The notes under the pieces: model-generated
Told to the model about the DNA's origin: nothing
The model's input: only the letters and a program-made list of their open reading frames with translations
Database searches by the model: none
IMG/VR virus record: IMGVR_UViG_3300027782_000082
Location: 1 to 63,049 of that record
Strand: one strand, 5' to 3'
DNA length: 63,049 nucleotides
Origin: a virus
Shown: in pieces, positions 2,231 through 20,863 of the stretch
How positions within the stretch are numbered: position 1 is the stretch's first letter
Layout: each line of letters begins with the position of its first letter
Translations under genes and position numbers: made by a program

Positions 2231-2533
2231 ATGGCCAGACCTAAACCAACAATACTGTTAGAAATAACAAACAAGAAGACCTACAAGAGTGACCAAGTTT
2301 TGGAAGCAGATGCGATCTATGCTGTGTTCCACGACAGTAAGCCAATCAATCTTCGCATGGTCAATAGCCTAGTCAATTACCCTGGACCCAAGTACAAGAA
2401 GGTCAGCTTTAGCAATCCCGGACATGCTTACAATCTAGCACAGAAGCTAAACAAACAATTCAACACCAAGGGATTCGAAGTATATGAACTCAAGTCAGGA
2501 AGATGTTTGGGAAGTGAAGACCCCGCTAGTTGA
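2231..2533 (+). CDS. Hypothetical protein (100 aa)
   Basis: A 100-residue basic protein beginning MARPKPTILLEITNKKTYKSD, with alternating short beta-like segments and a C-terminal helix (HAYNLAQKLNKQFNTKGFEV). It is preceded by a late-type TAAATA box and an SD-containing hairpin, so it probably heads a transcription unit that continues through the two putative head-internal proteins downstream. No domain is recognised. The 3' end overlaps the next gene by 50 nt. Confidence 0.65.
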   Translation: MARPKPTILLEITNKKTYKSDQVLEADAIYAVFHDSKPINLRMVNSLVNYPGPKYKKVSFSNPGHAYNLAQKLNKQFNTKGFEVYELKSGRCLGSEDPAS

Positions 2534-2867
2534 GACTGTACTGCGAGAAGTTTCTCCATTACATCCAACCCCATTAACTCCTTTCCAAATTTTTCAAAAT
2601 TATAGAGACGGGCGCGGCACAAGGTTCACTACCCTGGGAATGAAACTAGCCAAGCAGGTGTTCGAAGCCTACACCGTGCGCATTCCAAAAGATACACCAA
2701 TAAAAGCTAAATATCTAACGGCACTGGATAGACACATGCAGTGGCCCTATTTCCTTGACCGCAATAGATTGATATTGTTCAATGAGATGGATGCCATGGA
2801 ATTTACGCTGTTCGGCGGTGACCTTGAAAGTTGGTGTGAAGGTAAAGAACCTGGGCGTGGAATATGA
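2484..2867 (+). CDS. Hypothetical protein (127 aa)
   Basis: Begins within the preceding gene (50-nt overlap). The ATG at 2484 has only a weak ribosome-binding site, and an in-frame GTG at 2514 after GGAAG is an alternative start. The conserved-looking core runs from LTPFQIFQNYRDGRGTRFTT through LDRHMQWPYFLDRNRLILFN. This part is aromatic-rich and acidic at the C terminus. It ends in a 4-nt ATGA overlap with the GNAT-HD gene. No function recognised. Confidence 0.6.
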   Translation: MNSSQEDVWEVKTPLVETVLREVSPLHPTPLTPFQIFQNYRDGRGTRFTTLGMKLAKQVFEAYTVRIPKDTPIKAKYLTALDRHMQWPYFLDRNRLILFNEMDAMEFTLFGGDLESWCEGKEPGRGI

Positions 2868-3982
2868 GACTTTACGAACTTATTAACGAAACTGCTATTA
2901 GACTTTCTGGCTCTTCAGATAAGGCAAAGGCATGGATAAAGAAAGTCTATGACTTGTACCCGCAGACTTGGCAGAACAATCACGTGATGCCACTGGGAGG
3001 TTCTGGCGATGACCAACAGTTTGCTATGTTTGAACTGGAGCCTAGTTTTTCCAAACGCGGTGCAGTGGAAGTCAAGTGGTTTCAAGCATACCCATTGCGA
3101 CAAGGTGTTGGTTCACGTGCCATGAAAGAATTGCAACGCATGGCACAAGAAGATGGCATCGCACTGACACTTTATCCTTGGGACAAAGGTCAGGTGAGCC
3201 AAAGCAAACTGACCAAGTTCTACAAAGGCCATGGGTTCAAACCTACCACCAAGGGTGCCAAGAACATGGCATGGAATCCAGTTGAAGAGGGGCGCGAAGA
3301 AGCATTACACTTTGCAACTCAAGCACATGCCGGTCAAACTCGGGCAGGCGGCGCACCTTATATTTCTCATCCTGTACGTGTTGCTCAGCATGTTGAACAA
3401 TGGAAGAAGTCTCATAATATAGAAGCATTGATCAGTGCGGCTTACCTACATGACACCCTAGAAGATACAGATACCACGCATGAAGCCTTGCACGACTTGT
3501 TTGGCGGATTGGTTGCATCACTAGTGCAAGAACTAACAAGCGATCCAGAAGAAATTAAAAAAGTAGGTAAGGCTGCGTACCTGGCGCATAAGATGGCTGC
3601 AATGAGCAGTTATGCTCTTGTTATCAAACTTGCTGACAGATTAGATAATGTCAAAGACATTACCACTGCTAAAACACCAGAATGGCGTACAAAGTACAAA
3701 GCAGAAACAGAACATATATTAGATTACATTGAAAAGAATCGTGCGCTGAGTGGTACACATCAAAAGCTAATTGAATTGATACGTAATAAGCTACAAGAAC
3801 TTCAGACCGTAGATGAAAACTTTGATGATGGGAAAAATCCTGGACGCAAAGGACTGAGCCAGCGTGTGGGCATACCCAAGAACGCAACTGTTTCACAGCT
3901 AGAGAAACATGCTAAAGCCCCGGGCGAAGAAGGAAGAATGGCTCGCTGGCAACTAAATATGCGAAGAGGACGCAACAAATGA
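2864..3982 (+). CDS. GNAT acetyltransferase - RelA/SpoT-type HD alarmone hydrolase fusion with capsid-targeting-like N terminus
   Basis: A 372-residue multidomain protein. Residues 1-10 (MRLYELINET) match the T4 capsid-targeting peptide pattern, with an I/L-x-E cleavage site after E9. Residues about 20-135 form a GNAT domain; the acetyl-CoA loop is at LRQGVGSRA (78-86). Residues about 140-295 form an HD domain of the SpoT/MESH1 type. R160, H169, H196-D197, E200-D201 and D258 (ADRLDN) match the residues that bind Mn2+ and ppGpp in Rel enzymes, so the hydrolase site looks intact. There is no synthetase domain. The C-terminal 55 residues are basic (GRKGLSQRVG...RWQLNMRRGRNK). Family knowledge: such HD enzymes hydrolyse (p)ppGpp to GDP/GTP. 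Inference: it may be packaged in the head and injected to relax the stringent response. It is coupled by ATGA overlap to the next gene, which has the same N-terminal pattern. Confidence 0.8.
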   Translation: MRLYELINETAIRLSGSSDKAKAWIKKVYDLYPQTWQNNHVMPLGGSGDDQQFAMFELEPSFSKRGAVEVKWFQAYPLRQGVGSRAMKELQRMAQEDGIALTLYPWDKGQVSQSKLTKFYKGHGFKPTTKGAKNMAWNPVEEGREEALHFATQAHAGQTRAGGAPYISHPVRVAQHVEQWKKSHNIEALISAAYLHDTLEDTDTTHEALHDLFGGLVASLVQELTSDPEEIKKVGKAAYLAHKMAAMSSYALVIKLADRLDNVKDITTAKTPEWRTKYKAETEHILDYIEKNRALSGTHQKLIELIRNKLQELQTVDENFDDGKNPGRKGLSQRVGIPKNATVSQLEKHAKAPGEEGRMARWQLNMRRGRNK

Positions 3983-5355
3983 AAATCCATGACATTATAA
4001 CCGAAGCAAAGCAAGACAAGAAGCCCAAGCTACCTGCTGGTGCCAAAAAGATGAACGGCTTGACTGTGATTCCACTGGATGCATTTGTTGATCAACCTAT
4101 AAAAGAAGGCGGAGATGGCGAAACTCCAAAAAGCAGAGGCATTGCTGATGGTTACTATGGTCGTCCGCCAAACCCACACAAGTATGCAAAAGACAGCACA
4201 GGTAAAAATGTTCGCGTCAAACTAACTGATCCTGCTGAAATTGCCGAATACATGGCAGGTTATAAAGATGATTCGTTTGGTTCCAAGGCCTATGAAGGTG
4301 TCAACGAAGCACCTGGTGATTTTGGCCTAGGTGCTAGCACACGTACTGCTAGTGATGATGAGATGCAGGCTTATGCAAAGCGCATCAAGGACAAAGAGAA
4401 GAACAAGCTAGACCCATACAACATGCCTTATGTGCATGGTTCCAACATACAGATCAAAGACGAAGGCGGCAAGGACTACAACTTGGATGCTCTTCGCAAT
4501 GCTATCACAGAACGTCCTACAAAGATCCTCAAGCAAAATGAAAAGATGCAACACAGTGATGGATCCAGCAGTATCTTCTTCAACGTAGGATTGCCTGCTC
4601 TTAAAGGACTCGCTGTAAATGAACAAACAGGTGAATTTGTTATTGTTGACACTTGCCCTGGTGCTGGTGCTTGCAAAACTTTCTGTTATGCAATGAAAGG
4701 TTCTTACGTGATGTTCAAGGCAGTGAGCATGAACCAAACACGCATGCTGAACTTCTTGCTCAACGACCCCGAAGGCTTTGCCGACGAAATGAGCAGTGAA
4801 CTACGTTCTGCTCAACGCAAGTTTGCCAAAGACGGTACCAAGGTAATTGTGCGCTGGCACGATGCTGGTGACTTCTTCAGCCCAGAATATCTTGCACTGG
4901 CATACAGCATCGCTCGCAAGTTCCCTACTGTAGATTTCTACGCTTATACCAAACTGGCCGATGTTGCCAGCGGAGACAAGCCAGCCAACTTCAAAATGAA
5001 CTTCTCCGGTGGTGCCAAAGGCAGCGAAGAAAAACAGATCAACTTCCAAAAGGTCAAGCACAGTCGTGTGGTGCCGAAGGACATGTTCTTTGATCTTATT
5101 TCTCGCAAGGGCAACAACCTGATCAAGGATGCAAAAGGCCGCATGCAATTTGCCAGCCAAGAGAACCTGGACACTTTCAAACAGCGCCTGGCCCAACAGT
5201 ACAAGATTGATAGAAACAGCATCATCACGTATGACCAGATGATGGCTACCAAAGACAGCGGCAAGCCAACTTGGAACGTGATTGTTATGCCTGGCGATGG
5301 TGATGACTCTGCTAACCGCAACGACGTGTTGGGTAGCTATCTCTTGTTCCATTGA
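3979..5355 (+). CDS. GP88-family protein with capsid-targeting-like N terminus
   Basis: A 458-residue protein overlapping the previous gene by 4 nt. The N terminus MKIHDIITEAKQ matches the T4 capsid-targeting pattern (cleavage expected after E9), and a second IKE|GG site is at residues 41-44. After a Lys/Asp-rich linker, the C-terminal two thirds carry features I associate with the phage 'gene product 88' family. These are a cysteine cluster CPGAGACKTFCYA (C226, C232, C236), the motif RWHDAGDFFSPEYLALAY near residues 290-307 and FYAYTK near 320. The reaction is unknown. The cysteine spacing suggests a metal or Fe-S site, but that is inference. With its neighbour it looks like an injected head protein. 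Confidence 0.7.
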   Translation: MKIHDIITEAKQDKKPKLPAGAKKMNGLTVIPLDAFVDQPIKEGGDGETPKSRGIADGYYGRPPNPHKYAKDSTGKNVRVKLTDPAEIAEYMAGYKDDSFGSKAYEGVNEAPGDFGLGASTRTASDDEMQAYAKRIKDKEKNKLDPYNMPYVHGSNIQIKDEGGKDYNLDALRNAITERPTKILKQNEKMQHSDGSSSIFFNVGLPALKGLAVNEQTGEFVIVDTCPGAGACKTFCYAMKGSYVMFKAVSMNQTRMLNFLLNDPEGFADEMSSELRSAQRKFAKDGTKVIVRWHDAGDFFSPEYLALAYSIARKFPTVDFYAYTKLADVASGDKPANFKMNFSGGAKGSEEKQINFQKVKHSRVVPKDMFFDLISRKGNNLIKDAKGRMQFASQENLDTFKQRLAQQYKIDRNSIITYDQMMATKDSGKPTWNVIVMPGDGDDSANRNDVLGSYLLFH

Positions 5356-6344: not shown

Positions 6345-7454
6345 ATGGCATCCAAAGACACCGTAGACAGTCGTACTGTCAAAATTTCAGAAGCTCGTAC
6401 GCTCATCCGCAAAGCTATCAGCAAGCGCCGTCCGGTGTTTATTTGGGGACCTCCGGGTGTGGGCAAGAGCGATCTCGTTGGGCAGATTGCCGACGACTTG
6501 AATGGCATCACCATCGACATGCGCATGGCGCTGATGGAACCTACCGACATCAAGGGCATCCCTTATTACAACGCCACCGAAAATACCATGAAGTGGGCTC
6601 CCCCGTCGGACTTGCCCACTGTGGAATTTGCCAGCCAGTATGACATCGTCATCCTGTTCCTAGATGAGCTTAACTCTGCTCCCCCTGCTGTACAAGCCGC
6701 GGCATACCAACTGGTGCTGAACCGTCGTGTTGGACAGTATGTGCTGCCGGACAATGTTGTTGTGGTTGCCGCAGGTAACCGACTCAGCGACAAGGGTGTT
6801 GCATATCGCATGCCTAGCCCACTTGCCAATCGTTTCGTACACGTTGAGCTCCATGTGGACTTTCCAGACTGGCAAGTTTGGGCTGTTAAGAACCAGATCC
6901 ACCCTGACGTGGTTGGTTACCTGAGCTACCAGAAAGCAGACTTGTTCCAGTTTGATCCGCAGGTACACGACCGTTCGTTTGGTACTCCGCGCTCTTGGTC
7001 ATTCGTGTCCGACTTGTTGGACGACCAGATGACTGACAACCAACAGAGCGACTTGGTTGCTGGTTGCGTTGGCTCTGGACTGAGCGTCAAGTTTATGGCA
7101 CACCGTAAGGTTGCGGCTCGCTTGCCTAATCCAACTGACGTGCTAGCTGGTAAAGTTACCACGATGGATGTGAAAGAGATTTCCGCCAAGTTCAGTTTGG
7201 TGACTGCTATGTGCTACGAGCTCAAAGCGGCTTATGACAGCCTTAACAAGGAAAAGAAGCTGGATGCATGGCACCCAATGTGCGAGCATTTCATCCAGTT
7301 CATGATGGACAATATGGAAAAAGAGATCGTTGTTATGGGTGCCGCTACTGCGCTCAAGACATATGAGCTCAAGTTCGATTATCGTAAGCTCAAGAACTTC
7401 AAAGAGTTCTACGACAAGTTTGCCCATCTTATCGTTGACGTGGATGCCAAGTAA
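6345..7454 (+). CDS. MoxR-family AAA+ ATPase
   Basis: A 369-residue AAA+ protein. Walker A is GPPGVGKSD (about residues 35-43), Walker B is ILFLDELN (about 104-111) and sensor 1 is VVVAAGN near 141-147. The MoxR-type segment IDMRMALMEPTDIKGIP lies between the Walker motifs, and PLANRF supplies the arginine finger. MoxR ATPases act as chaperones that remodel or insert metal into partner proteins, and they are typically paired with a VWA-domain protein. Here the next gene (7558) has such a domain. The gene has a consensus promoter and a GAGGAAAA ribosome-binding site. The substrate of the pair in this phage is unknown. Confidence 0.85.
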   Translation: MASKDTVDSRTVKISEARTLIRKAISKRRPVFIWGPPGVGKSDLVGQIADDLNGITIDMRMALMEPTDIKGIPYYNATENTMKWAPPSDLPTVEFASQYDIVILFLDELNSAPPAVQAAAYQLVLNRRVGQYVLPDNVVVVAAGNRLSDKGVAYRMPSPLANRFVHVELHVDFPDWQVWAVKNQIHPDVVGYLSYQKADLFQFDPQVHDRSFGTPRSWSFVSDLLDDQMTDNQQSDLVAGCVGSGLSVKFMAHRKVAARLPNPTDVLAGKVTTMDVKEISAKFSLVTAMCYELKAAYDSLNKEKKLDAWHPMCEHFIQFMMDNMEKEIVVMGAATALKTYELKFDYRKLKNFKEFYDKFAHLIVDVDAK

Positions 7455-7461
7455 GATGGGT

Positions 7462-7492
7462 GGAGAGCAATCTTTTAGCGGGGTTGCTCTCC
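7462..7492 (+). terminator. Hairpin after the MoxR gene
   Basis: GGAGAGCAA (7462-7470) pairs with TTGCTCTCC (7484-7492) around a 13-nt loop, followed by AATTTATG. It is a probable terminator with a weak T-tract, just before the promoter at 7504. Confidence 0.6.
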
Positions 7493-7503
7493 AATTTATG
7501 TGG

Positions 7504-7532
7504 TTGACAGTGAGTCCAAACTGTCGTACAAT
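7504..7532 (+). promoter_or_regulatory. Sigma70-type promoter for the VWA/metallopeptidase gene
   Basis: TTGACA (7504-7509), 17-nt spacer, TACAAT (7527-7532). ATG 7558 follows 25 nt later with AAAGGAG as ribosome-binding site. Confidence 0.85.
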
Positions 7533-7557
7533 ATATAAACACTAAAGGAGCATCCAC

Positions 7558-8727
7558 ATGCAACATAAACTTTCAGCTTCAGACCGTATTACCAAAGCTC
7601 GTGTGCGCATGCTACTCAAGCATGGGTTCTTTGGGCAGATTGCTACTCGTTTGCAATTGGTTGAAGAGCCTGGTATTCCTACTGCGGCGGTGGATGGAAA
7701 GAAATTCTATTACAATGCGGACTTCGTACAGAAGCTCAGCGATGACGAACTAGTGTTCTTGGTTGGACATGAAGTTGGACATTGCGTGTGGCAACATTTC
7801 TTGCGACGCGGTGATCGTCGACGCGACGTTTGGAACATGGCTGGTGACTTTGTGATCAACCAGATCCTTGTAGACGAACGCATTGGTGCCCAGATCAAGG
7901 CTGTTCCTATCCTGCTCGATAACAAGTATCGCGGCATGGCTAGTGAGGAAGTCTACGAAGAACTGATGAAGAACGCTGTCAAGATCCAAGCCACACTTGA
8001 TATCCATATGGATGGTGACGGCAATGAAGATGGTGAAGGCGAAGGAAAAGGTTTCAAAGGTGAGCCTCTTACTGAAGAAGAAAAGAAAGCTCTAAGCGAC
8101 GAGCTCAAAGAAGCTGTACTGCAAGCGGCACAGGCTAGCGGCGCTGGCAACATTCCAAAAGGCTTCCAGCGTCTGATCAACGATATCACTGCGCCCAAGA
8201 TGAACTGGCGCGATATGTTGAAGATCCAGCTTAACAGTATCATCAAGAACGACTACTCGTTCATGCGTCCTAATCGCAAGGGATGGCATATTGGTGCTGT
8301 ACTGCCTGGCATGTTACCCGGCGACGAAGTGAACATTGCTATTGCTATTGATACTTCTGGATCCATTAGCGAGAGCATGCTCAAAGACTTTTTAGGTGAG
8401 ATTGCTGGCATCATGGATCAGTTTGATTCTTACATTGTGCGTGTCTTCCAATTTGACACTCATGTGTATGGTGAAGAGATCTTCTCGAGTGATTCTAACA
8501 GTGACATCCGTACTTACGAAGTACGTGGTGGTGGCGGTACTGACTTTGAAGTGATCTTTAGTCACTTGAAGAACGAAGACGTAACGCCAAATCAATTGGT
8601 AGTGTTCACAGATGGCGAACCCTGGGGTAGCTGGGGCGATGCTGACTACTGCGATACGCTGTGGATCGTGCATAGCAATTCCAACAAGAAAGCTCCGTTT
8701 GGTGTCACTACCCACTACGAAGCGTAA
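7558..8727 (+). CDS. Metallopeptidase-like protein with C-terminal VWA domain (DUF2201 type)
   Basis: A 389-residue protein. The N-terminal part carries a zinc-peptidase-like HEVGHCVWQH motif (about residues 71-80). The middle is an acidic linker (DGDGNEDGEGEGKG). The C-terminal domain has a VWA-type MIDAS, IAIDTSGSIS (near 262-271), and VFTDGEPWG near 350. This two-part layout is typical of predicted metal-dependent peptidases that partner MoxR ATPases. Although it follows the MoxR gene directly, it has its own consensus promoter and terminator, so the two can be expressed in different amounts. The peptidase activity is predicted from HExxH only; a target is not known. Confidence 0.8.
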   Translation: MQHKLSASDRITKARVRMLLKHGFFGQIATRLQLVEEPGIPTAAVDGKKFYYNADFVQKLSDDELVFLVGHEVGHCVWQHFLRRGDRRRDVWNMAGDFVINQILVDERIGAQIKAVPILLDNKYRGMASEEVYEELMKNAVKIQATLDIHMDGDGNEDGEGEGKGFKGEPLTEEEKKALSDELKEAVLQAAQASGAGNIPKGFQRLINDITAPKMNWRDMLKIQLNSIIKNDYSFMRPNRKGWHIGAVLPGMLPGDEVNIAIAIDTSGSISESMLKDFLGEIAGIMDQFDSYIVRVFQFDTHVYGEEIFSSDSNSDIRTYEVRGGGGTDFEVIFSHLKNEDVTPNQLVVFTDGEPWGSWGDADYCDTLWIVHSNSNKKAPFGVTTHYEA

Positions 8728-11951: not shown

Positions 11952-12554
11952 ATGTATAATTTTCCTGTAGCACATCTTGATATCGATCTTAATAAGATAT
12001 ACAGTCTATGGAAAGACAAGTATCAAGCTGAACATCTTAAGAAGCCACAAAAAAATACTGTCAGTGTTGAACGCAGTGATCTGTCAGTATTTAACAACGA
12101 GCCGTGGGTAGTCGGTAGAGGATTGAAACCAGCTTCTGCGTTCTTTGGAGTAACTGGCCCAAACAGTTGCATGAATCCACATAAAGATCCTAGTAGTGAT
12201 CCAGAGGTAATTAAGAATGGATTTGTTTCGCATCCATGGGCGTTGAACATTCCTCTCACATGCGACGTCGGCAGCTACATGTCTTGGTATCGAGTCAAGC
12301 CTGGAAAGATCACCAGGCTTGAAGGTGAGAAGCATAGTCCTTATGGCAATGTGCGTGTGCCAATGGCAAATCTAGAAGACCTTGACCCTGTTGCCACTGT
12401 TTGCCTAGATCGTCCTATGCTGGTTAGCACAAGCGAGTGGCATGCTGTTGTCAACAACAACAATACTACTAGACTTATTTTCAGCTTAAGGTTTTCACCG
12501 ATTATGTCGTTGGCAGAGGCTGCTAAAGTTTTTAGTTCTTCAGCATCTCTTTAA
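11952..12554 (+). CDS. 2OG-Fe(II) oxygenase-like cupin protein (200 aa)
   Basis: A 200-residue protein with the layout of a double-stranded beta-helix dioxygenase. A PHKDPSSDPE segment (HxD at about residues 76-78) could supply two Fe ligands. A distal EWHAVVNN histidine near residue 160 could be the third. TTRLIFSLRF gives the 2-oxoglutarate-binding arginine. WALNIPLTCDVGSYMSWY forms the core strands. It is the first of five such proteins in the cluster. No ribosome-binding site is evident, consistent with the close TAAATA box. The substrate is unknown. Its last 23 nt overlap the convergent gene. Confidence 0.65.
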   Translation: MYNFPVAHLDIDLNKIYSLWKDKYQAEHLKKPQKNTVSVERSDLSVFNNEPWVVGRGLKPASAFFGVTGPNSCMNPHKDPSSDPEVIKNGFVSHPWALNIPLTCDVGSYMSWYRVKPGKITRLEGEKHSPYGNVRVPMANLEDLDPVATVCLDRPMLVSTSEWHAVVNNNNTTRLIFSLRFSPIMSLAEAAKVFSSSASL

Positions 12555-13353
12555 GATAAGCATCTGCTTCTTTGAAGTTTGTGGGAGATTTGTACGTTCG
12601 CTTAGGAAAAGAAGAAGCACGACACCATTGATCAATTGGCACGTTCAACTGTACTGTGACCTTATCCGGCCAGTTAAGTTCCATCTTTCCTTTTTGGTAC
12701 CATTCAACACCTAGTATGGCAGCTTTCTTTCGCCACTTCTCTTTAAGCATACGATATCGTATTGTAGATGCAACATACCAATCAAGCTGAGATTGTGTGA
12801 TCTCAAACTCGGCATCATTTGGAAGAGTCTGCCGAGCCATTCGTACCAACTGGAATATTGGATCAAAACTCTTTTCAATAAACACCACTCTTGCAGTACT
12901 GAGAAATTGATTCTCAACTGCGTTTTGTTTTTCTTGTAAATCTGGATGTACCGGTTCTGTATAGTAGCGTATAAAAGTTGAACGACTATTGATAAAAAGT
13001 GTATTAGCAAAAGCAATACGTTTATCAAATGCTGTTTCAATGGTATCAGTTGGTGTTTTAACTGATACATCTCCTTCAACTAGATACGGTTCCTCGTATG
13101 TAACAACGTCTCCTGGGCTAGTATACCCTCCAGTCCATCCAATGTCATTGACTCCTCTAACATTTAACAGCAAGTCTAAAAATCCTGCATAGTTTGGATC
13201 TCGCATTGAACGGCGATGCCAATATAAAAATATGTCATATGAAGTTGTACCTGGTGCTTCAACGAAGATGATTGGACGCTGCCACTTCATGTCAATTGCC
13301 GCATTATCATTTGCACGGGTGCTTGTAAAAGCGTTGGGAATAAGGTGTCTCAT
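12532..13353 (-). CDS. Unknown protein, possible sulfotransferase-like fold (273 aa)
   Basis: A 273-residue protein in a two-gene minus-strand unit with the fatty-acid hydroxylase (2 nt between them). I do not recognise a family with confidence. The N-terminal IIFVEAPGTTSYDIFLYWH resembles the PAPS-binding loop of sulfotransferases (G-T-T after a beta strand). A later ARVVFIEKSFDPIFQLVRMA resembles their second PAPS-binding segment. Both matches are weak and the key Lys/Arg is missing from the first. The C-terminal half is helical and basic. It could equally be a novel enzyme of the cluster. Confidence 0.5.
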   Translation of the reverse strand: MRHLIPNAFTSTRANDNAAIDMKWQRPIIFVEAPGTTSYDIFLYWHRRSMRDPNYAGFLDLLLNVRGVNDIGWTGGYTSPGDVVTYEEPYLVEGDVSVKTPTDTIETAFDKRIAFANTLFINSRSTFIRYYTEPVHPDLQEKQNAVENQFLSTARVVFIEKSFDPIFQLVRMARQTLPNDAEFEITQSQLDWYVASTIRYRMLKEKWRKKAAILGVEWYQKGKMELNWPDKVTVQLNVPIDQWCRASSFPKRTYKSPTNFKEADAYLKEMLKN

Positions 13354-13355
13354 GT

Positions 13356-13817
13356 TTATCCGTTATGAGGTTTGTATGTGTTAAAGAGTTTATCCCATAG
13401 TGGAATAAACAGTCCGTAATTTTTACGTTGATGTCTGTGATGCACCAAGTGCCACTTGCCACTTGTTAGCCATGGGTACCAATCAAATTTAGGATTATGT
13501 TCGATTACTTCTTGTAACAAGGCCGCCCAAAAATAATAGAAGATACTAACCCACCAATGTCCTGTTACTGCTGAGAATATAAGTGTTGGTATGACTTCTG
13601 TGATCCATAAGTCCACGGTGCTTTTCCAAGTGTCGTTGTAGAGCAACAGGTTGTTCCAATGCCATGTGGTTCCACCGTGCCTATTGATATACAAATGATG
13701 GTCCTGATGGAACTTGTTAACAAAAGGAATACGATGTCCAGCGCGATGTATCCAGTACAAACAAAATGTCCATAACAGGAAAACTAACGGATATTCAATC
13801 ATCTCAATCAATTCCAT
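13356..13817 (-). CDS. Fatty-acid hydroxylase / sterol-desaturase family membrane di-iron protein
   Basis: The start ATG at 13817 sits 9 nt after AGGAG, better than the TTG at 13826. The 153 residues include hydrophobic segments (YPLVFLLWTFCLYWI and LIFSAVTGHWWVSIFYYFW). The histidine boxes of the family are HRAGH (about 24-28), HQDHH (about 37-41) and HLVHHRH near 126-132, plus EHN in between. Such enzymes bind two irons at the membrane face and hydroxylate or desaturate lipid chains. The protein is shorter than typical members (200+ residues) but retains all boxes. Its neighbours suggest an acyl substrate. Confidence 0.8.
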   Translation of the reverse strand: MELIEMIEYPLVFLLWTFCLYWIHRAGHRIPFVNKFHQDHHLYINRHGGTTWHWNNLLLYNDTWKSTVDLWITEVIPTLIFSAVTGHWWVSIFYYFWAALLQEVIEHNPKFDWYPWLTSGKWHLVHHRHQRKNYGLFIPLWDKLFNTYKPHNG

Positions 13818-13833
13818 GCGTCGCAACTCCTAC

Positions 13834-13841
13834 GATAAATA
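13834..13841 (+). promoter_or_regulatory. Late-promoter-like box GATAAATA
   Basis: A 7/8 match to TATAAATA, 22 nt before ATG 13864, in the short divergent gap between the hydroxylase and the oxygenase/ACP operon. A TATAAT at 13846 lacks a -35 partner. Confidence 0.5.
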
Positions 13842-13863
13842 CTAGTATAATGAGGTACAGCAA

Positions 13864-14289
13864 ATGATGATGCTATTACGCAAATGGAATGGAAAATTTC
13901 CTTCCATCAACGATTCCAAAACTGACGTATGGTTTGGAAACGCATCATCATCAATTCGTACATGGATACTTAGCTACTCTAGCCTAACCTGGGGTTGCGC
14001 CAATTCAACAGGGTATCTAGGACATTGGGAAACTGTAACAGATTCGGCATGCTATCAGTGGCGCTGTTGGACATCCACAGACATGTTAAAGTTAGCATAT
14101 CTAAAAAATACAGATAGGTTCAAAGCCGAAAAAGAAGCTGTTGATTCTTTATCAAAAGAATTAGACCTCGCGATGTACGATCATATATTTGAAATTGAAA
14201 TTAGCAAAGACCCAGCAGGTATGTTTGCTGGCGAACTTGAGAGTCTAATTGAAATGTATCATCCAGAATTGATAAAGGGGAACAGCTGA
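13864..14289 (+). CDS. Hypothetical protein heading the oxygenase/ACP operon (141 aa)
   Basis: Starts with two successive ATG codons (13864 and 13867). The first half is rich in Trp, Ser and Asn (KTDVWFGNASSSIRTWILSY, WGCANSTGYLGHWETV). The second half is charged and helical (KAEKEAVDSLSKELDLAMYD). The stop overlaps the next start (TGATG). No family recognised. As first gene of a five-gene operon with two oxygenase-like proteins, an ACP and a TauD homologue, it may be a dedicated partner. Confidence 0.6.
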   Translation: MMMLLRKWNGKFPSINDSKTDVWFGNASSSIRTWILSYSSLTWGCANSTGYLGHWETVTDSACYQWRCWTSTDMLKLAYLKNTDRFKAEKEAVDSLSKELDLAMYDHIFEIEISKDPAGMFAGELESLIEMYHPELIKGNS

Positions 14290-14864
14290 TGAGCGAAACA
14301 ACTTACAAAAATTTCAAGCTCTTGATGACTGATCAAGGAATGCCATTGGCAACTGAATGGTTAGTTGGCGATAGCAATCAAGCCAAGATGGCCTGGGCAC
14401 AAAATCAAAGTAGACAGCGCATGACAGCGGCATTGCGTCATACTGAAAATATCCATCTACGTTATATTATGGCGCCTGCCGGATACGACACACGCAAAGC
14501 AAATGATATATTAGAAGTGTTTGATAATAAAATGCTACTAGGCATGAAAGCACTCACTGCAATTTACGATCGTGTCATGGGTATATCAAAACATCTTGGA
14601 TGTAAAGATGTTGGTCGTATATTTCTTAGCAAACTACTAGCCGAATGCGAAGTAGCACGTCATACTGATGAAGGCGACTACTTCAGCAAGTACGGACGTT
14701 ATCATTTGGTATTGCATACCAATCCCGACGCTGCCTGTGAAGTTGACGGAGAAGAATGCTTCATGCCTGCAGGGACTGTGTGGTGGTTAGAGAATGGCTT
14801 GCCACACTCATTTTGGAACCGAGGCAAAACAGATAGGATACATGTAATATGGGACGCACTATGA
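14289..14864 (+). CDS. Aspartyl/asparaginyl beta-hydroxylase-like oxygenase
   Basis: A 191-residue protein. The C-terminal half matches the AspH-type cupin: VARHTDEGDYFSKYGRYHLV supplies an HxD pair. CFMPAGTVWWLENGLPHSFW carries the distal histidine. NRGKTDRIHVIWDAL carries the arginine that would bind 2-oxoglutarate. Members hydroxylate side chains of peptides or small molecules. It is part of the ACP operon with ATGA-type overlaps at both ends, so its substrate could be an acyl-carrier-bound or peptide intermediate. That last step is inference. Confidence 0.75.
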   Translation: MSETTYKNFKLLMTDQGMPLATEWLVGDSNQAKMAWAQNQSRQRMTAALRHTENIHLRYIMAPAGYDTRKANDILEVFDNKMLLGMKALTAIYDRVMGISKHLGCKDVGRIFLSKLLAECEVARHTDEGDYFSKYGRYHLVLHTNPDAACEVDGEECFMPAGTVWWLENGLPHSFWNRGKTDRIHVIWDAL

Positions 14865-15103
14865 ACGATACACTAGAAAGAATACAGAAAGTTGTTGCAG
14901 GATACTGCAAGATTGATGTCAAGGATGTTTGGCCCAATTCAAACTTTGTTGAAGACCTAGGCCTTGATAGTCTTGATTCAATTGAAATGGTCATGGCAGT
15001 TGAAGAAGAGTTTGGTGTCGAGCTTACAGACGATGGACTTGAAGTTGTCAAGACTATTGAACAGCTGGCAGCTGCCATTGATCGGTTAATAAAGAAAGAC
15101 TGA
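14861..15103 (+). CDS. Acyl carrier protein
   Basis: ATG 14861 overlaps the preceding stop (ATGA). An upstream in-frame ATG at 14849 would add four residues but lies inside the previous gene. The 80-residue product is a standard ACP in length and pattern. The phosphopantetheine attachment motif is LGLDSLDSIEMVM (Ser about 37), followed by VEEEFGVELTDDGLE and the final helix VKTIEQLAAAIDRL. It is acidic as expected. It would need a 4'-phosphopantetheinyl transferase, not seen here and so presumably from the host. It sits among oxygenases and near a thioesterase and desaturase, implying phage-directed acyl chemistry. Confidence 0.92.
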   Translation: MNDTLERIQKVVAGYCKIDVKDVWPNSNFVEDLGLDSLDSIEMVMAVEEEFGVELTDDGLEVVKTIEQLAAAIDRLIKKD

Positions 15104-15104
15104 C

Positions 15105-15851
15105 ATGCACAACATCAAAGGACAGCCTTGGTTTGATCTAGAACCATACATTGATATAGAAGCATTATCTTTGCAAAAGCATAAGATAGCGGCTGCATTA
15201 GCCGCTAGTCATCCTTTTAGATATCCAAGTATAGTAGGAGCACAAGATAATCTGTATGATCAATCATTGGTTGAACTAGGCGACTTTGCAAAGAAGCTGA
15301 TCAATGATGAAAATTACGAGCATCATAATATGCTGAAGCTACTCGGGTCTGCTCCTAAGATACAGTTGTTCTGCAAGTATATGTACGATGTTGTGGCTCT
15401 AAACGAAGCGATACATCTACGCACAGTAAGAGGCGGAGATTACTTTAACAAACACAAGGCAGCGCATTGTGTCAACACTCCTGCTTTCAAATTTTTCAAC
15501 TTCCTGAAAGTTTGGTTAGAAGAACAGAACATATTCAGTGAATATGGGCGTGTTGTTTTCTTTGTAAACGAGCCCGGTGTATCAAGCATCAGGCATCGTG
15601 ATTATCCAGACGGTGTAAGTCGTAAAGATCAATTCATTTGGTTGAGCCTAGACGGACGTAAGAATTTTTGGGTATGGGACGATGATGAGAAAGTGCAACA
15701 CAATGTCACTAGCCGTGTTGCATTATTTGACAATGCCAATTGGCATGGTAGCGATCCATGCCAATATACTGGCTGGAGTATGAGAGTCGACGGTGTATTT
15801 TCGCCGGCGTTCTTGAAGAAAACAGGTCTGGAGGACTTTTATAATGTCTGA
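15105..15851 (+). CDS. 2OG-Fe(II) oxygenase-like protein (248 aa)
   Basis: The N-terminal half is helical and unrecognised (LSLQKHKIAAALAASHPFRY...). The C-terminal half has a dioxygenase core. SIRHRDYPDG provides HxD near residues 163-165, and QFIWLSLDGRKNFWVWDDDE forms central strands. LFDNANWHGSDP carries the distal His near 211, and GWSMRVDGVF carries the candidate 2OG-binding Arg. It starts 1 nt after the ACP stop, so it is co-translated with the carrier. This makes it the best candidate for acting on an ACP-bound substrate. Confidence 0.7.
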   Translation: MHNIKGQPWFDLEPYIDIEALSLQKHKIAAALAASHPFRYPSIVGAQDNLYDQSLVELGDFAKKLINDENYEHHNMLKLLGSAPKIQLFCKYMYDVVALNEAIHLRTVRGGDYFNKHKAAHCVNTPAFKFFNFLKVWLEEQNIFSEYGRVVFFVNEPGVSSIRHRDYPDGVSRKDQFIWLSLDGRKNFWVWDDDEKVQHNVTSRVALFDNANWHGSDPCQYTGWSMRVDGVFSPAFLKKTGLEDFYNV

Positions 15852-16755
15852 TAAAATTGATCCTAGAACTAGAGCATCAGATATATTTGATGACTGGGGT
15901 TCTATATTTGAAGGCCCACATGATTGGTTAGACAACATCATGCCCGGTAGCTTGGCCAAGATGCTGTACCAACGCAAGATACTTGTGTTCAAAAAAATAA
16001 AACTTACTCCTTTCCAATTCTGGAGACTTTCTAGGCGGTTTGGTATACCATGGAAAGAAGATCAATACAAGTATAGTAAAGAAAAGTCCATGCCACTTAT
16101 CATGCCCGAAGATGGCCGAACAGAATATATGAGTGCTATTAGCAATAAAATTAGCTCAAGACTTGGTGATAGAGAAATGCCATGGCATGCTGATATTCCC
16201 AATGCTGTTAGCTATGCTTTCCCGCATAGAGCAATCTACATGCGTACTTGTCCCAATCCCGAAGCTGGTTTTACTATCTGGATGAATACGCCCAAGGCAT
16301 TCAAGGGTGTATCTGACGATCTTAAACGTCGTTGGGGAATGACTCGTATTGTTCAACAGAGCTGGTATGAGCCTGGCAAAGATCTGCAAGAATTTCCCAG
16401 TATGACTCGGCATCCAGTTACTGGTGAATATTGTCCACGTGTCAATTACTACGTAGACGAAACACAAAACGAAGGATGGATTGTTGATACCAAAGTAGGC
16501 GGTCAGCAACGTGGCACAGGTATTGTTGCTGAGATGCTGGAAGAGATGTCAAAGCAGCCTGATTGCACATATGAGCATCATTGGGACGAAACAGATTTAG
16601 TTATATACGATAACTTTCCCTTTGTGCATCGTCGAACTGCATGTGAGCTCGACGATGGTCAGGAACGGCTAATGTGGCGTATGAATATTGATCACGACCC
16701 CAATGCCAGGAAGCTCTTTGAAGCTGTAAAGATTCCTGTAGTTTCATCCAAGTAG
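15844..16755 (+). CDS. TauD/TfdA-family 2OG-Fe(II) dioxygenase
   Basis: A 303-residue protein with the TauD pattern. MPWHADIPNAVSYAFPHRAI holds the HxD (near residues 115-117). A long insert with CPNPEAGFTIWMNTPKAF follows the family's second strand pair. YDNFPFVHRRTACE gives the distal His near 261, and ERLMWRMNID gives the 2OG-binding Arg. Family members hydroxylate small molecules such as taurine, and some act in lipid or siderophore pathways. The gene overlaps the previous one by 8 nt and, at its 3' end, the convergent PP-loop gene by 64 nt. Confidence 0.83.
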   Translation: MSDKIDPRTRASDIFDDWGSIFEGPHDWLDNIMPGSLAKMLYQRKILVFKKIKLTPFQFWRLSRRFGIPWKEDQYKYSKEKSMPLIMPEDGRTEYMSAISNKISSRLGDREMPWHADIPNAVSYAFPHRAIYMRTCPNPEAGFTIWMNTPKAFKGVSDDLKRRWGMTRIVQQSWYEPGKDLQEFPSMTRHPVTGEYCPRVNYYVDETQNEGWIVDTKVGGQQRGTGIVAEMLEEMSKQPDCTYEHHWDETDLVIYDNFPFVHRRTACELDDGQERLMWRMNIDHDPNARKLFEAVKIPVVSSK

Positions 16756-17774
16756 ATGAAGTCGTGCATGTTGGCATAACGTGTAAGGCTAGGTATTGAA
16801 GGATACTTGGTCTTATACTTGAAGTATTCAAAGTCTCCGTTACATTCCAAGATCAATTTCTTAGCTGGTAGCTTGTAGCTGTACCAGTCGGTCAACACCT
16901 TGTCCTCATCCGTATACAATGCCCATAGCTGGAATTCTTTGGTTTCAAAGAAATGCAACACACGTTGAGCCATGGCATTGACCAACTCCGGAGTAGGAGC
17001 ATGGCTTACTAGGCGGAACTTAACTGCTTGCCATTTGGTAGCAAAATTCAACCACCAGAAGCAGTCATGATTTGATAACATCTTCCTTGGTGCCTGCTCA
17101 AGCAAAACTTTGATCATCTCATGGCAATTCACGACCTGTGTATGGTCTTTGACTTTTGCCAACAGCCAAGGCAACCCTTGTGTTTCAAAGTTACCATGTA
17201 TCACTGAAAAGTCTCCAGTGTGATCCATATAGCTCTTGAGTGTCAAGCTACCAAAGATGTTGTCAGCAAATTCGCCTGTGACACATACATAACGATCATC
17301 CTGTATCAGTGTATGGAATTCGCTTGCATTGATCAATCGATCAGCAAATCCAGGTATGATATACTTTTCAAAGAACGTAGGATTTTCTCTCACGGAATCT
17401 TCGTTGAATGCCAAGTGTATGTGCTCTGCATGCTTGTTCCAGTCTGGGTGCATCAGCGCAAGGCATACGATAAGCGTAGAATCAATGCCGCCTGAATAGA
17501 AGATAACAATATCCTTACCTGCATCAATTTGATCTACAATCCCTTGCCATCTATCTTCGCATATTTCTCTGAAGCTACGTGGCTTTGCTTTTTCTGGAAT
17601 ATGATCCAGCACAAGACAGTCAACAGGAGGTATATCAATTGCCCCTGTACGATCTATCAAGCTAATTGATCCATTGAACATGCTACAGAAAGCGGCTTCC
17701 TTGGCATATTTCTGCTTGATCTCAGGTATGCTGAACAATGCCTGTGGTGTGTAATAAACAAGTTTCTGGGTCAT
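16692..17774 (-). CDS. PP-loop ATP pyrophosphatase, asparagine-synthase-like
   Basis: A 360-residue protein. The PP-loop is IVIFYSGGIDST (about residues 89-100), the ATP-binding signature of the asparagine synthetase C-domain and related amide-forming enzymes. Aspartates that follow (FADRL, GEFADNIFGS) fit the usual nucleotide and Mg2+ contacts. There is no N-terminal Cys2 glutaminase domain, so ammonia or an amine would come from elsewhere. It is the last gene of a long minus-strand operon and overlaps the TauD gene tail-to-tail by 64 nt. Likely role (inference): adenylation and amidation of an acid made by the cluster. Confidence 0.75.
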   Translation of the reverse strand: MTQKLVYYTPQALFSIPEIKQKYAKEAAFCSMFNGSISLIDRTGAIDIPPVDCLVLDHIPEKAKPRSFREICEDRWQGIVDQIDAGKDIVIFYSGGIDSTLIVCLALMHPDWNKHAEHIHLAFNEDSVRENPTFFEKYIIPGFADRLINASEFHTLIQDDRYVCVTGEFADNIFGSLTLKSYMDHTGDFSVIHGNFETQGLPWLLAKVKDHTQVVNCHEMIKVLLEQAPRKMLSNHDCFWWLNFATKWQAVKFRLVSHAPTPELVNAMAQRVLHFFETKEFQLWALYTDEDKVLTDWYSYKLPAKKLILECNGDFEYFKYKTKYPSIPSLTRYANMHDFIYLDETTGIFTASKSFLALGS

Positions 17775-18403
17775 AGTAACATATTGGTAAAGAGGTCTTT
17801 GTCGATAGCACCGTGGACCTTTTCCAATTCCTCTAAAGCCTTTGCTCGCTTGATAGCGGTCATATGTCTAATCCTTAATCTTTCCAACTTGCGCACATGT
17901 GTCATTGCATTTTCATGTTTGACTTTTATCAATCTGGCAGCATGCTCCATCTTCATTCCTGTTTCAAGGGCATAGTCTGCAACCAATCCATCATAGTAGT
18001 ATACGGAGTCGTCTTTATTTTCCAGTATGTCAAGTGCTTCTTTGTACTTGCGTTCGTATACCAAATCAAGTTCTGGCATCAGGCTTTTGGCCTTGTGCCA
18101 TCCATGTTCTATCCTTCCTCTAAATAGATTGAATAACTTGTGCTTGTACATGATCAACTTGCTTAGTTGTCGTGTATCGTCTTTGCGTTCAACTTTTTCT
18201 AGGTATACTGCGCGATGGCCGTTGTAACGAATACGGAAGTCAAACTGCCCCGCACGTAGCCATTCTATTTCTTCATCTTTGAGAGCAAATATTTTTGGTA
18301 TGACATTGAAGTATGGTTCAGTCAGCCATTGCAACTCTTCCATGTCTTCACATGCATATACTACTTCATTCTCAATATTGGCAGCAACGCAAAGCCAACC
18401 CAT
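17771..18403 (-). CDS. Hypothetical protein (210 aa)
   Basis: A 210-residue protein between the desaturase and the PP-loop enzyme, overlapping both by 1-4 nt. The N-terminal third is beta-like (MGWLCVAANIENEVVYACED). The rest is strongly helical and basic (ERKYKEALDILENKDDSVYY, HVRKLERLRIRHMTAIKRAK), possibly coiled-coil. Proteins of this build occur in other T4-like phages, but I cannot name a family. Tight coupling suggests it serves the same pathway as its neighbours. Confidence 0.65.
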   Translation of the reverse strand: MGWLCVAANIENEVVYACEDMEELQWLTEPYFNVIPKIFALKDEEIEWLRAGQFDFRIRYNGHRAVYLEKVERKDDTRQLSKLIMYKHKLFNLFRGRIEHGWHKAKSLMPELDLVYERKYKEALDILENKDDSVYYYDGLVADYALETGMKMEHAARLIKVKHENAMTHVRKLERLRIRHMTAIKRAKALEELEKVHGAIDKDLFTNMLL

Positions 18404-19311
18404 TACACGATCTCCACAGGAGTCGCATTCTCATTGTGTCGCCAGGCTCTGTACCATTGACTCCAGAGACGCTTGGTTTCGCGCCAGGGTGATACAAATG
18501 GTACCAACAACAAGCAAGGATCAAACTCCCACCACTTGCCACTCACAGTAGTACCAAAGTCAAAATGCCTTGGACTCTTGTGATGATTGTTGTGCCATCC
18601 TTGTCCCCAGGCCAACCAGCCAACCAATGGCACATTCACACTCTGATCTTTTGTGTTGTAGTAGCGATAACCTGCACCCGGAAAATGACACACAGAATTT
18701 ACCACGCTGTCACTGTGTAGAGAAAACATTGTTGGTATCACAAAAAACCAAAATGCAAACATAGGATCAATCGCCATCATCACTGCCAATGTTCCCCATA
18801 GTACATAATTATAATGCTTGTGATGCCACACCATGCTCTTGTCTTTGAGATATTCTATACCATACTTCAAATTGATAGTATCGTGTTTTACTTTCAACAT
18901 CCAGCCCATATAGGCATGCCAGAATCCATCCTTAGGAGTATGTATGTCTCTTTCGGGATTGTCAGCATGCGCATGATGATATCCTCTATGCAGAGCGGCC
19001 CACCAAATAGCACTGCCTTGGCAACTGCATACCATTATCCAATGCATTATTGGTCGCATAAAAGGACGCACTTCAATTGACTTATGGCTGACCCATCTAT
19101 GTAGTCCAACACATGCACCAAGTCCGCCAAATATCACCCAACCGGCCACAAACCAGGCGGCATACATCCAGTCCCAGCTTTGATATCCAAGATACAATCC
19201 ATATACTGCTAAAATATGAAATGGTATCAAGACTGCAAAAACATAAGGCACTTGTTTTGTTGCACGATATGTTGCGATGTTATCGTCTAAGAATTGTTTT
19301 AGTTTTGTCAT
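18403..19311 (-). CDS. Membrane fatty-acid desaturase (acyl-CoA/lipid delta-9 type)
   Basis: A 302-residue integral membrane di-iron protein. All three histidine boxes are present: HRWVSH (71-76), HRGYHHAH (108-115) and HNNHH (240-244). Four hydrophobic stretches surround them (around 25-42, 50-66, 170-190 and the region near 95). This is the DesC/stearoyl-desaturase arrangement, which introduces a cis double bond using O2 and electrons from ferredoxin or cytochrome b5. No electron donor gene is seen nearby. Fatty-acid desaturases have been described in cyanophages. Here it lies in one operon with PP-loop, GNAT-like, SDR and methyltransferase genes. Confidence 0.9.
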   Translation of the reverse strand: MTKLKQFLDDNIATYRATKQVPYVFAVLIPFHILAVYGLYLGYQSWDWMYAAWFVAGWVIFGGLGACVGLHRWVSHKSIEVRPFMRPIMHWIMVCSCQGSAIWWAALHRGYHHAHADNPERDIHTPKDGFWHAYMGWMLKVKHDTINLKYGIEYLKDKSMVWHHKHYNYVLWGTLAVMMAIDPMFAFWFFVIPTMFSLHSDSVVNSVCHFPGAGYRYYNTKDQSVNVPLVGWLAWGQGWHNNHHKSPRHFDFGTTVSGKWWEFDPCLLLVPFVSPWRETKRLWSQWYRAWRHNENATPVEIV

Positions 19312-19889
19312 TTTTCGTCTGGCTCCATGCGTTCTCTACGTTTTACATACCTCCGCAGATTTACGTCAAAATTGTGTATTGCATAACCTAGCATACTATG
19401 ATAAACTGGCCACGGACTACGAGTTCCAGCCGGAATAGTACACTCTACCCATGTTATATATCTCTCACGCAAGAAACGCATAATTTTACGGTAGCTTTCT
19501 TCTCTACCACCAGGGCTTGACACATACCATTCATTTATGCCAATGCTTTCGTGATAGTCGCACAATGCCATGATCATGTCGCGGAAATTACGTACCATTG
19601 CCATGTTCTTTTGATTACTGAGCACAAAGCTCAATAACCATACAGGTTGATATTGCATGCGTCGGATACCAGCTACCATCACAAGATTGCCTTCGCTGTC
19701 GTATACGCCCAGCGTTTTACGCCACTCATGTCCACCAATGTTTTCTGGAACCAAGAACAATTCAAACATACGAGAATCTGGCTGTAGTGCTACAGGGTAA
19801 GTGTCTTTGGGATTGGCATAGGTTGCCTGTGCCAGTGCTTTGATGTCATCTAGGCTAGACATATCTAGCCATTTCATATTGTCTTGCAT
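19308..19889 (-). CDS. Possible GNAT-fold acyltransferase (193 aa)
   Basis: A 193-residue protein overlapping its neighbours by 4 and 16 nt. The order of segments suggests a GNAT-like fold: an N-terminal helix, LGVYDSEGNLVMVAGIRRMQ (paired strands), VWLLSFVLSNQKN, then a helix (NFRDMIMALCDYHESIGINE). The acetyl-CoA loop Q/RxxGxG/A is not clear, so the assignment is tentative. The C terminus is basic (NLRRYVKRRERME). In context it could transfer an acyl group from the phage ACP, but that is speculation. Confidence 0.5.
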   Translation of the reverse strand: MQDNMKWLDMSSLDDIKALAQATYANPKDTYPVALQPDSRMFELFLVPENIGGHEWRKTLGVYDSEGNLVMVAGIRRMQYQPVWLLSFVLSNQKNMAMVRNFRDMIMALCDYHESIGINEWYVSSPGGREESYRKIMRFLRERYITWVECTIPAGTRSPWPVYHSMLGYAIHNFDVNLRRYVKRRERMEPDEK

Positions 19890-20863
19890 ACGCTCACCTT
19901 GCCTTGTTTCATGTTCTTTATCAATTCATGTGCACCAAACTCGTATATCCTGGGTTCAGTCGCAAATAATAGATTGGCGCATTGATGTTCTACATCTGTC
20001 CATATGTGGAATAACTTTTCTACTCCAGTGCGCTTGGGTCTTGGCTTAAACGGATATCGAGTCAATGAACCGTAAATTTCATTCTTGCTAGATGTCCATC
20101 CCATCTTGCCTGGCATCTGATCAGTTATCAATCTGTTGACCACATAGCCTTCAAGGAAAGCCAGCATGGTCTCTGGGTTATATGTATAAAAGTTGTTGTA
20201 CGCTGGTATACCAGTCTTGGCAACAAACCTACGCCATACACCGTCCTGATCTTCTTTCTTCAAGAATACCCAATGCATACGATGCTCGCCTGTTTTCAAC
20301 AAGTGATCCATGTCTGGTGTTTTTTCTATTTCTACTTCATCAATAGTGATCATTGGTTCAGCAAAGTTTTCAGCAACCTTGCATAGCACTTGCTGATAAA
20401 ATGTATAGCTCTGATATTCTTTGCATATACGCTGCCAGTCTCCGCTTTCGTAAAATGCCACCGGATCAAAGTCCAAGTAAGTCGGTGTCAAGCCAGCAGC
20501 CTCACAAAAGCCAGTTGCTTGATCCACGTCTGCGTTGTTTAGATCGTCTTTGAATTTCACAATGACTGGTCTAAAAGGAGCACGGCTTTCCATCCAGGCC
20601 TGCAATGCGATTTCGCTGTCAAGGCCGCCGCTGAAAAATACTGCTATTGGTTCTTTGTGTTTGCGTGAAATTATCTTTGTTGTGCGTATGAGCTCACCGC
20701 GGAATGTCAATCTAGGACGTACACTATGTCCAACTGTGCTAACTGTTTGTTGCCAGTCGTCGTCTCTGAATATTTTCAAAGGATCGTTATCATACCAATA
20801 CTTGATATGATTGTTTTCAGTGAATTCAAATTTATCGTAAAGGTTATTCGGAGATAGCATCAA
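19874..20863 (-). CDS. Second PP-loop ATP pyrophosphatase, asparagine-synthase-like
   Basis: A 329-residue protein with PP-loop IAVFFSGGLDSEIALQAW (about residues 74-91). The rest differs strongly from the PP-loop protein at 16692, although gene order and length are similar. LDFDPVAFYESGDW and ITIDEVEIEKTPDMDH follow the loop. No glutaminase domain. Two different amide/ATP-pyrophosphatase enzymes in one operon suggest two adenylation-dependent steps or two substrates. It overlaps the GNAT genes on both sides by 16-20 nt. Confidence 0.72.
   Translation of the reverse strand: MMLSPNNLYDKFEFTENNHIKYWYDNDPLKIFRDDDWQQTVSTVGHSVRPRLTFRGELIRTTKIISRKHKEPIAVFFSGGLDSEIALQAWMESRAPFRPVIVKFKDDLNNADVDQATGFCEAAGLTPTYLDFDPVAFYESGDWQRICKEYQSYTFYQQVLCKVAENFAEPMITIDEVEIEKTPDMDHLLKTGEHRMHWVFLKKEDQDGVWRRFVAKTGIPAYNNFYTYNPETMLAFLEGYVVNRLITDQMPGKMGWTSSKNEIYGSLTRYPFKPRPKRTGVEKLFHIWTDVEHQCANLLFATEPRIYEFGAHELIKNMKQGKVSVCKTI

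Follow-up and report, generated by a model that had tools for sequence, protein, structure and literature searches.

A leader-tagged GNAT and small alarmone hydrolase protein of a T4-type giant phage, a candidate head-cargo polyprotein

In a fragment of an uncultured, freshwater relative of the T4-type giant phages we identified a gene whose product joins a nine-residue leader, resembling the capsid-targeting sequence (CTS) of T4, to a GNAT domain, a small alarmone hydrolase (SAH) domain with an intact active site and a basic C-terminal module. The leader and the motifs at the domain junctions recur in a non-random manner, and the modules are shuffled between proteins. From this arrangement we infer packaging, cleavage, injection, catalysis and targets as follows. 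In a T4-type giant phage related to Rak2 and PA5oct, the gene product would be a polyprotein carried as head cargo, and its leader would bind the prohead core, so that the protein is packaged before DNA entry. A gp21-type prohead protease would then take off the leader after E9, and the same protease would probably cut both junctions too (VEE/G and VDE/N, the slash marking the cut), releasing the acetyltransferase and the small alarmone hydrolase as separate enzymes, together with a basic peptide that would sit on the DNA. These products would be injected with the genome and act ahead of any phage gene expression, the hydrolase stripping the 3'-pyrophosphate off either an alarmone, (p)ppGpp or (p)ppApp, or the CCA end of a tRNA modified by toxSAS, and the acetyltransferase acting on a host protein, most likely a component of defence or transcription. 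Taken as a whole, leader-directed packaging of a head-cargo polyprotein, followed by cleavage and injection, is the best explanation we can offer and, in our judgement, a moderately probable one; it suggests that these phages carry ready-made enzymes into their host.

Gene 2864-3982 and the phage that carries it

The window, i.e., the whole stretch of 63,049 nucleotides that was analysed, is a 63 kb fragment with a T4-like late sigma factor and T4-like gp46/47 homologues and baseplate proteins. Among cultured phages, it is closest to the giants Salicola SCTP-2, Cronobacter GAP32, Pseudomonas PA5oct and Paride, and it shares many proteins, mostly about 30-71% identical, with two larger genomes of uncultured relatives (G004 and G005) that encode the gp21 protease and gp23. 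Genes for gp21 and gp23 were absent from the 63 kb fragment itself and are present in the related larger genomes G003-G005, G019 and G022-G024, among them relatives that have the GNAT module.

The reading frame on the plus strand is open exactly over positions 2864-3982 and encodes a protein of 372 aa, supported by Pfam, PHROG and PDB sequence matches. Its ATG start overlaps the stop of the upstream gene (2484..2867, plus strand; PHROG 15638, function unknown) by four bases (ATGA), and both belong to the same transcription unit. The next gene (3979..5355, plus strand) encodes a second leader-tagged putative cargo of 458 aa, in which MKIHDIITE precedes a GP88-family domain (Pfam GP88, E 5e-33), and the homologues of this gene in three other loci (L030, L045, and L050) lead with MRFHEFIAE. 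The T4 late promoter TATAAATA had no match in the window, this consensus being that of T4 and perhaps not that of the present lineage. Compared with a 96% identical copy in another locus (L002), gene 2864-3982 has an overall dN/dS of about 0.07, and the synonymous divergence differs per module (0.87 for the GNAT, 0.20 for the HD, and 0.03 for the tail), as would be expected if modules recombine. The initial annotation had proposed a T4-like leader, a GNAT domain and a complete SpoT/MESH1-type HD domain with no synthetase, and this architecture was confirmed from the ORF, the Pfam, PHROG and PDB matches and an AlphaFold2 model. Beyond that description, we found the basic C-terminal module, the junction motifs at residues 140-142 and 316-318, and the second leader-tagged gene downstream.

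Several other regions of the window were also noted. A biosynthetic-looking island (12532-26637, both strands) comprises a fatty acid hydroxylase, an aspartyl beta-hydroxylase, an acyl carrier protein, a TauD dioxygenase and an NAD epimerase, and the stand-alone acyl carrier protein together with the oxygenases suggests a pathway for small-molecule or lipid/glycan modification. At 6345-8727, a MoxR-type ATPase and, after it, a VWA/DUF2201 metallopeptidase-like protein have counterparts of 48-69% identity in G004 and G005. Beside the baseplate genes lies an ORF of 3413 residues (30722-40963) whose one PHROG match, a weak one to a virion structural family, falls in the C-terminal piece, and an ORF with a long VKPIEVKP-type repeat tail and no Pfam match runs off the contig end (59843-63049).

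The hydrolase domain and its possible substrates

The HD domain (residues 143-315; 3290..3808, plus strand) is of the small alarmone hydrolase type, within the RSH superfamily. Pfam HD_4 matched across residues 147-285 (E 4e-16), PHROG 990, annotated as 'metal-dependent phosphohydrolase', matched with E 7e-32, and human MESH1 was the top PDB sequence match (E 9e-18), while the same Pfam, PHROG and PDB sequence searches found no synthetase domain in the 372-aa protein. Residues H35, H61, D62, E65, D66, D122, and N126 of MESH1 correspond to H169, H196, D197, E200, D201, D258, and N262 of the window protein, and these metal and catalytic residues are retained in essentially all of the 35 viral HD domains compared. 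The HD part of the full-length AlphaFold2 model matches the structures of the P. aeruginosa SAH and MESH1. In this first model the HD was usable and the GNAT was poor, probably because partial rows of the alignment were misaligned and one row (L010) was spurious, and its GNAT was superseded by a GNAT-only model (see below). With HD_4, all metal and catalytic residues and the SAH fold, the domain resembles MESH1, the P. aeruginosa SAH and PaSpo, the SAH of phage SSU5; unlike in these enzymes, predicted capsid-targeting elements are fused to it or lead it, and the position of MESH1 K25 is occupied by Ala in the window protein and by Ser or Ala in most relatives.

The domain is likely to be an active 3'-pyrophosphohydrolase, an activity that depends on Mn2+ in this family, and possible substrates are (p)ppGpp, (p)ppApp and toxSAS-pyrophosphorylated tRNA. 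The earlier claim of a ppGpp-degrading enzyme holds for the intact active site, and was too narrow as to the substrate, which need not be ppGpp since phage SAHs reverse the pyrophosphorylation of tRNA by toxSAS (PMC11559606). An injected hydrolase might in fact serve counter-defence and not control of the stringent response, by clearing the tRNA CCA pyrophosphate or the (p)ppApp produced by infection-sensing toxSAS of the CapRel/FaRel2 type, and we give this reading nearly an even chance. PaSpo, among other SAHs, undoes the tRNA modification by toxSAS (PMC11559606) and a capsid protein sets off the toxSAS CapRel (PMC9712102), which would make delivery ahead of gene expression a sensible arrangement; a fast toxin would favour such pre-delivery, and a co-packaged AcrVA5-like GNAT fits an anti-defence set. 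However, ppGpp and NADPH are also substrates of MESH1-type enzymes. If the cargo reading is true, host alarmone signalling or toxSAS defence would be disarmed from the first moment of infection, without gene expression.

The GNAT domain, the basic tail and the junctions between modules

By sequence, the GNAT domain (residues 10-139; 2891..3280, plus strand) gave a sub-threshold Pfam match (E 0.02). A GNAT-only AlphaFold2 model built from an alignment of 46 sequences (pLDDT 89.6, pTM 0.82) matches GNAT structures, and on the strength of this prediction we consider the GNAT fold to be present. The top PDB match of the model in Foldseek was AcrVA5 (6iuf; E 1.4e-5, TM 0.71 by target length, 23% identity), followed by polyamine acetyltransferases and TacT/AtaT toxins, and 6iuf was also matched, weakly, by sequence (E 0.008). 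AcrVA5 is an anti-CRISPR protein that acetylates Cas12a and blocks it. The two proteins share a minimal GNAT fold, a similarity that is structural and known here from the model; unlike AcrVA5, from which it also differs at the identity given, the GNAT of the window protein is longer, with a conserved N-terminal helix and a QNNHVM segment.

A scan of viral contigs yielded 80 loci, in most of which the N-terminal 139 residues recur with 65-80% identity (about 45 distinct loci for the GNAT module), combined with a wide range of partners in proteins that reach about 1900 residues. In longer proteins with an internal GNAT, the match often starts at residue 9 or 10, immediately past the leader. The HD domain occurs without the GNAT in other loci, and the C-terminal 54 residues (NFDDGKNPGRKG..., residues 319-372, pI 11.3; 3818..3979, plus strand) are found on many unrelated proteins. 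This basic module is a possible DNA tether, and as the tail of the protein it may hold the cargo on DNA. Since a search of cultured phages gave no match, the GNAT and C-terminal modules are known only from metagenomes. Several effector domains are shuffled between the proteins of one element class, and one obligate bifunctional enzyme is less likely because elsewhere the HD stands alone behind a leader and the GNAT is combined with many partners.

Both ends of the HD domain are marked by a hydrophobic-x-Glu motif, V-E-E at the junction with the GNAT (residues 140-142; 3281..3289, plus strand) and V-D-E before the C-terminal module (residues 316-318; 3809..3817, plus strand), which are candidate prohead-protease sites with predicted cuts at VEE/G (142) and VDE/N (318). 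Among distinct internal GNATs, [ILVMF]xE lies at most 14 aa from the last conserved Trp in 27/27 cases (background 22%), a motif that was defined and tested on the same data. No residue other than the junction motif is enriched at these ends, and seven of the nine distinct GNAT ends located at a protein C-terminus are without it. A hydrophobic-x-Glu was also found at a fixed place before the first HD helix in 20/22 distinct HDs as compared to 0/18 controls (p 3e-9), the controls being bacterial or unrelated phage homologues; as none of these homologues has the Glu, an ordinary helix cap could be ruled out. In front of the C-terminal module, hydrophobic-x-E or a similar motif is present in 16/16 distinct copies listed, a leader-only fusion (L046) being one of them. 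Cleavage after Glu by a prohead protease would be the simplest common cause of these motifs.

Whether the junctions are cut is about an even matter, and such internal cutting is less certain than removal of the leader because P3 is often Val at the junctions (18/37 GNAT ends, and both sites of the 372-aa protein are V-x-E) and mostly Ile or Leu in the leaders (80/97). The likely sites at both junctions nevertheless make delivery as one bifunctional enzyme improbable. It had been suggested that a single injected protein carries the GNAT as a second host-directed activity; the GNAT fold was borne out by the model, whereas delivery in one piece probably does not apply.

Alternatively, the protein might be packaged and trimmed at E9 with its junctions left uncut, the V-x-E motifs being recombination seams, and enter the host as one polyvalent protein; we regard this as possible, while leaning against it. 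The difference in P3 between leaders and junctions is in line with such a course, given that T4 gp21 cuts after, and prefers, L/I-x-E (PMC9026906), and the term polyvalent protein stands for injected multi-domain proteins that stay uncut (PMC5512222). On the other hand, even the strict [LI]xE fits 12/27 of the internal GNAT ends, terminal GNATs are mostly without a site, and a seam alone would not keep just a hydrophobic residue and Glu while the linker varies.

The proteins described here are like the polyvalent proteins (Iyer et al., 2017; PMC5512222) in being shuffled and multi-domain with GNAT among the domains, the polyvalent proteins having likewise been proposed to be injected with the phage DNA. 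The present proteins differ in having prohead-protease-like motifs at the module boundaries and a T4-type CTS in front, and in that the RelA/SpoT modules described for polyvalent proteins are of the synthetase type and not MESH1-type hydrolases. Delivery with the DNA is something we infer for the window protein from the leader by itself.

The leader peptide and possible delivery by the phage head

The protein begins with MRLYELINE-TAIRLSG, where I7-N8-E9 precede T10. The leader (residues 1-9; 2864..2890, plus strand) is T4 CTS-like, and a cut after E9 is predicted from motif enrichment, comparison with T4 and the L/I-X-E rule of gp21. In T4, a stretch of ten IPIII residues is enough for packaging, targeting depending on residues 4 and 7 and processing on residues 8 and 10 (PMC9026906), and aligned with MKTYQEFIAE of T4, MRLYELINE likewise forms an N-terminal peptide of about ten residues with a hydrophobic targeting position and a hydrophobic-x-Glu end.

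When all contigs fetched were scanned for M-x(2,3)-[EDQ]-[FLIVM]-[ILVTMF]-x-E, the motif was found at 104 of 2145 start-zone ATGs compared to 9 of 5333 internal Met in the related phages (odds ratio 30, p 2e-46), and the strict form MRAxEF[ILVT]xE occurred 49 times at starts and never internally; the leader is thus placed at protein starts far above chance. The bodies behind it fall into about 30 clusters without detectable mutual similarity and include GP88, GNAT, P-loop kinase, chitinase-like, PARP-like, amidoligase, and cytidylyltransferase domains. Across the genome of T4, the original spacer matches gp2, gp21, and gp22 only, and a spacer of 2-4 brought the matches to seven ORFs, out of 733 start-zone ATGs (ipII, ipIII, Alt, gp2, gp21, gp22, and gp24), every one of them a head protein, a test that is not blind because the spacer was widened once the T4 N-termini had been seen.

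A second scan, for the HD domain, gave 36 HD loci. The solo HDs are about 185 residues long and carry N-terminal peptides such as MRYSEIIAE/D, MIRFKAFISE/D, MKSFDEYITE/S, and MLSFSHFIKE/D, and both gp21 and gp23 are present in G019, G022, G023, and G024, four of the genomes whose solo SAH follows such a peptide. G023 and L164 have a run of three genes with RFKxFxxE-type leaders between gp13 (head-tail adaptor) and gp14 (head-closure), with the SAH gene in the centre; in G022 the SAH gene comes after gp14 and upstream of the large terminase gene. Cultured Kyanoviridae (for instance phage C48C1 and Melnitz) have leader-like genes as well, beside families that adjoin the uncultured leader-SAH genes. 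The enrichment at starts, the specificity in T4, the co-occurrence with gp21 and gp23 and the neck-gene location in other phages all agree with the initial annotation, which had read the peptide as capsid-targeting. Packaging by means of the leader is quite likely, and a cut at E9 is likely as well.

It is improbable that the protein is an ordinary infected-cell enzyme, made from the incoming genome as one cytosolic chain whose N-terminal peptide is unrelated to packaging. In cultured phages of Vibrio, Burkholderia, and Erwinia, solo SAHs do begin directly at the HD helix without such a peptide, and the HD module of related contigs is not always leader-tagged either, since several fusions (L146, L147, L150, and L159) begin with a nucleotidyltransferase and have no leader. 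Yet the leader is kept at the starts of the roughly 30 unrelated bodies, it resembles only head proteins in T4, and leader-bearing SAH genes stand among neck genes. Most improbable of all is that leader-tagged proteins are parts of the scaffold core that are broken down and leave the head as it matures, without being injected, for although gp21 cuts T4 gp22, gp67, and gp68 to fragments (PMC9026906, PMC5694885) and leader-tagged proteins hold multiple cut motifs, their bodies fold as enzymes, keep their active sites and are under strong purifying selection, and the cargo varies in identity between phages, unlike scaffold parts.

A packaged and injected cargo has its closest precedent in IPI-III and Alt of T4, which are CTS-led, cleaved by gp21 and injected as payloads for host takeover or anti-defence (PMC3012670, PMC9026906). 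Common to both are a short leader ending in hydrophobic-x-Glu (MKTYQEFIAE and MELITELFDE in T4, MRLYELINE here) and a constant leader with a variable payload behind it. In contrast to the T4 proteins, one chain here joins an alarmone hydrolase and an AcrVA5-like GNAT as predicted payloads, with extra hydrophobic-x-Glu junctions and a basic tail. The literature searched, which included few subscription papers, described no CTS-led cleavable cargo polyprotein and no packaged alarmone hydrolase. Of the cultured relatives that have virion mass spectrometry, PA5oct is the closest, and the cassette is absent from it; among its strict-motif proteins, one head-cluster protein was detected by mass spectrometry and a few small ones were undetected. 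The detected protein (73 aa; NC_071039.1 82921-83142) starts with MKINDIITE, near to the MKIHDIITE leader of window gene 3979.

More broadly, T4-type environmental phages may use the prohead as a maturation chamber, where counter-defence or metabolic modules bounded by protease sites and placed behind one leader would be cut in the head and injected separately, a generalisation to which we give slightly less than an even prospect. If true, the leader and junction rule would let the injected protein set of uncultured T4-type phages be read from sequence, and a single phage head would be a natural route for several enzymes into bacteria. The rule points to many unstudied payload families, i.e., GNAT, ADP-ribosyltransferase-like, kinase, nucleotidyltransferase, and GP88.

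Some further observations were made among the relatives. The gp21 match of G024 (G024:C1:32998-33423) has two in-frame TGA codons, suggesting TGA recoding or a broken gene. Two short leader proteins (L057:9387, in G004, and L003:5119) continue after the Glu with sequences (DASGGSTSAGSIAPVAMPLGG and TSTTSGVMATVAKPIGG) that resemble the N-terminus that gp23 would have once cut at its own predicted site, and are possible capsid-mimic peptides. Finally, PHROG 455 (L166:484-1713), a 410-aa protein of unknown function, has the leader MKTFKQYIAE, nearly that of a T4 internal protein, and with relatives in 313 cultured phage records, mostly cyanophages, it is a practical target for virion proteomics.
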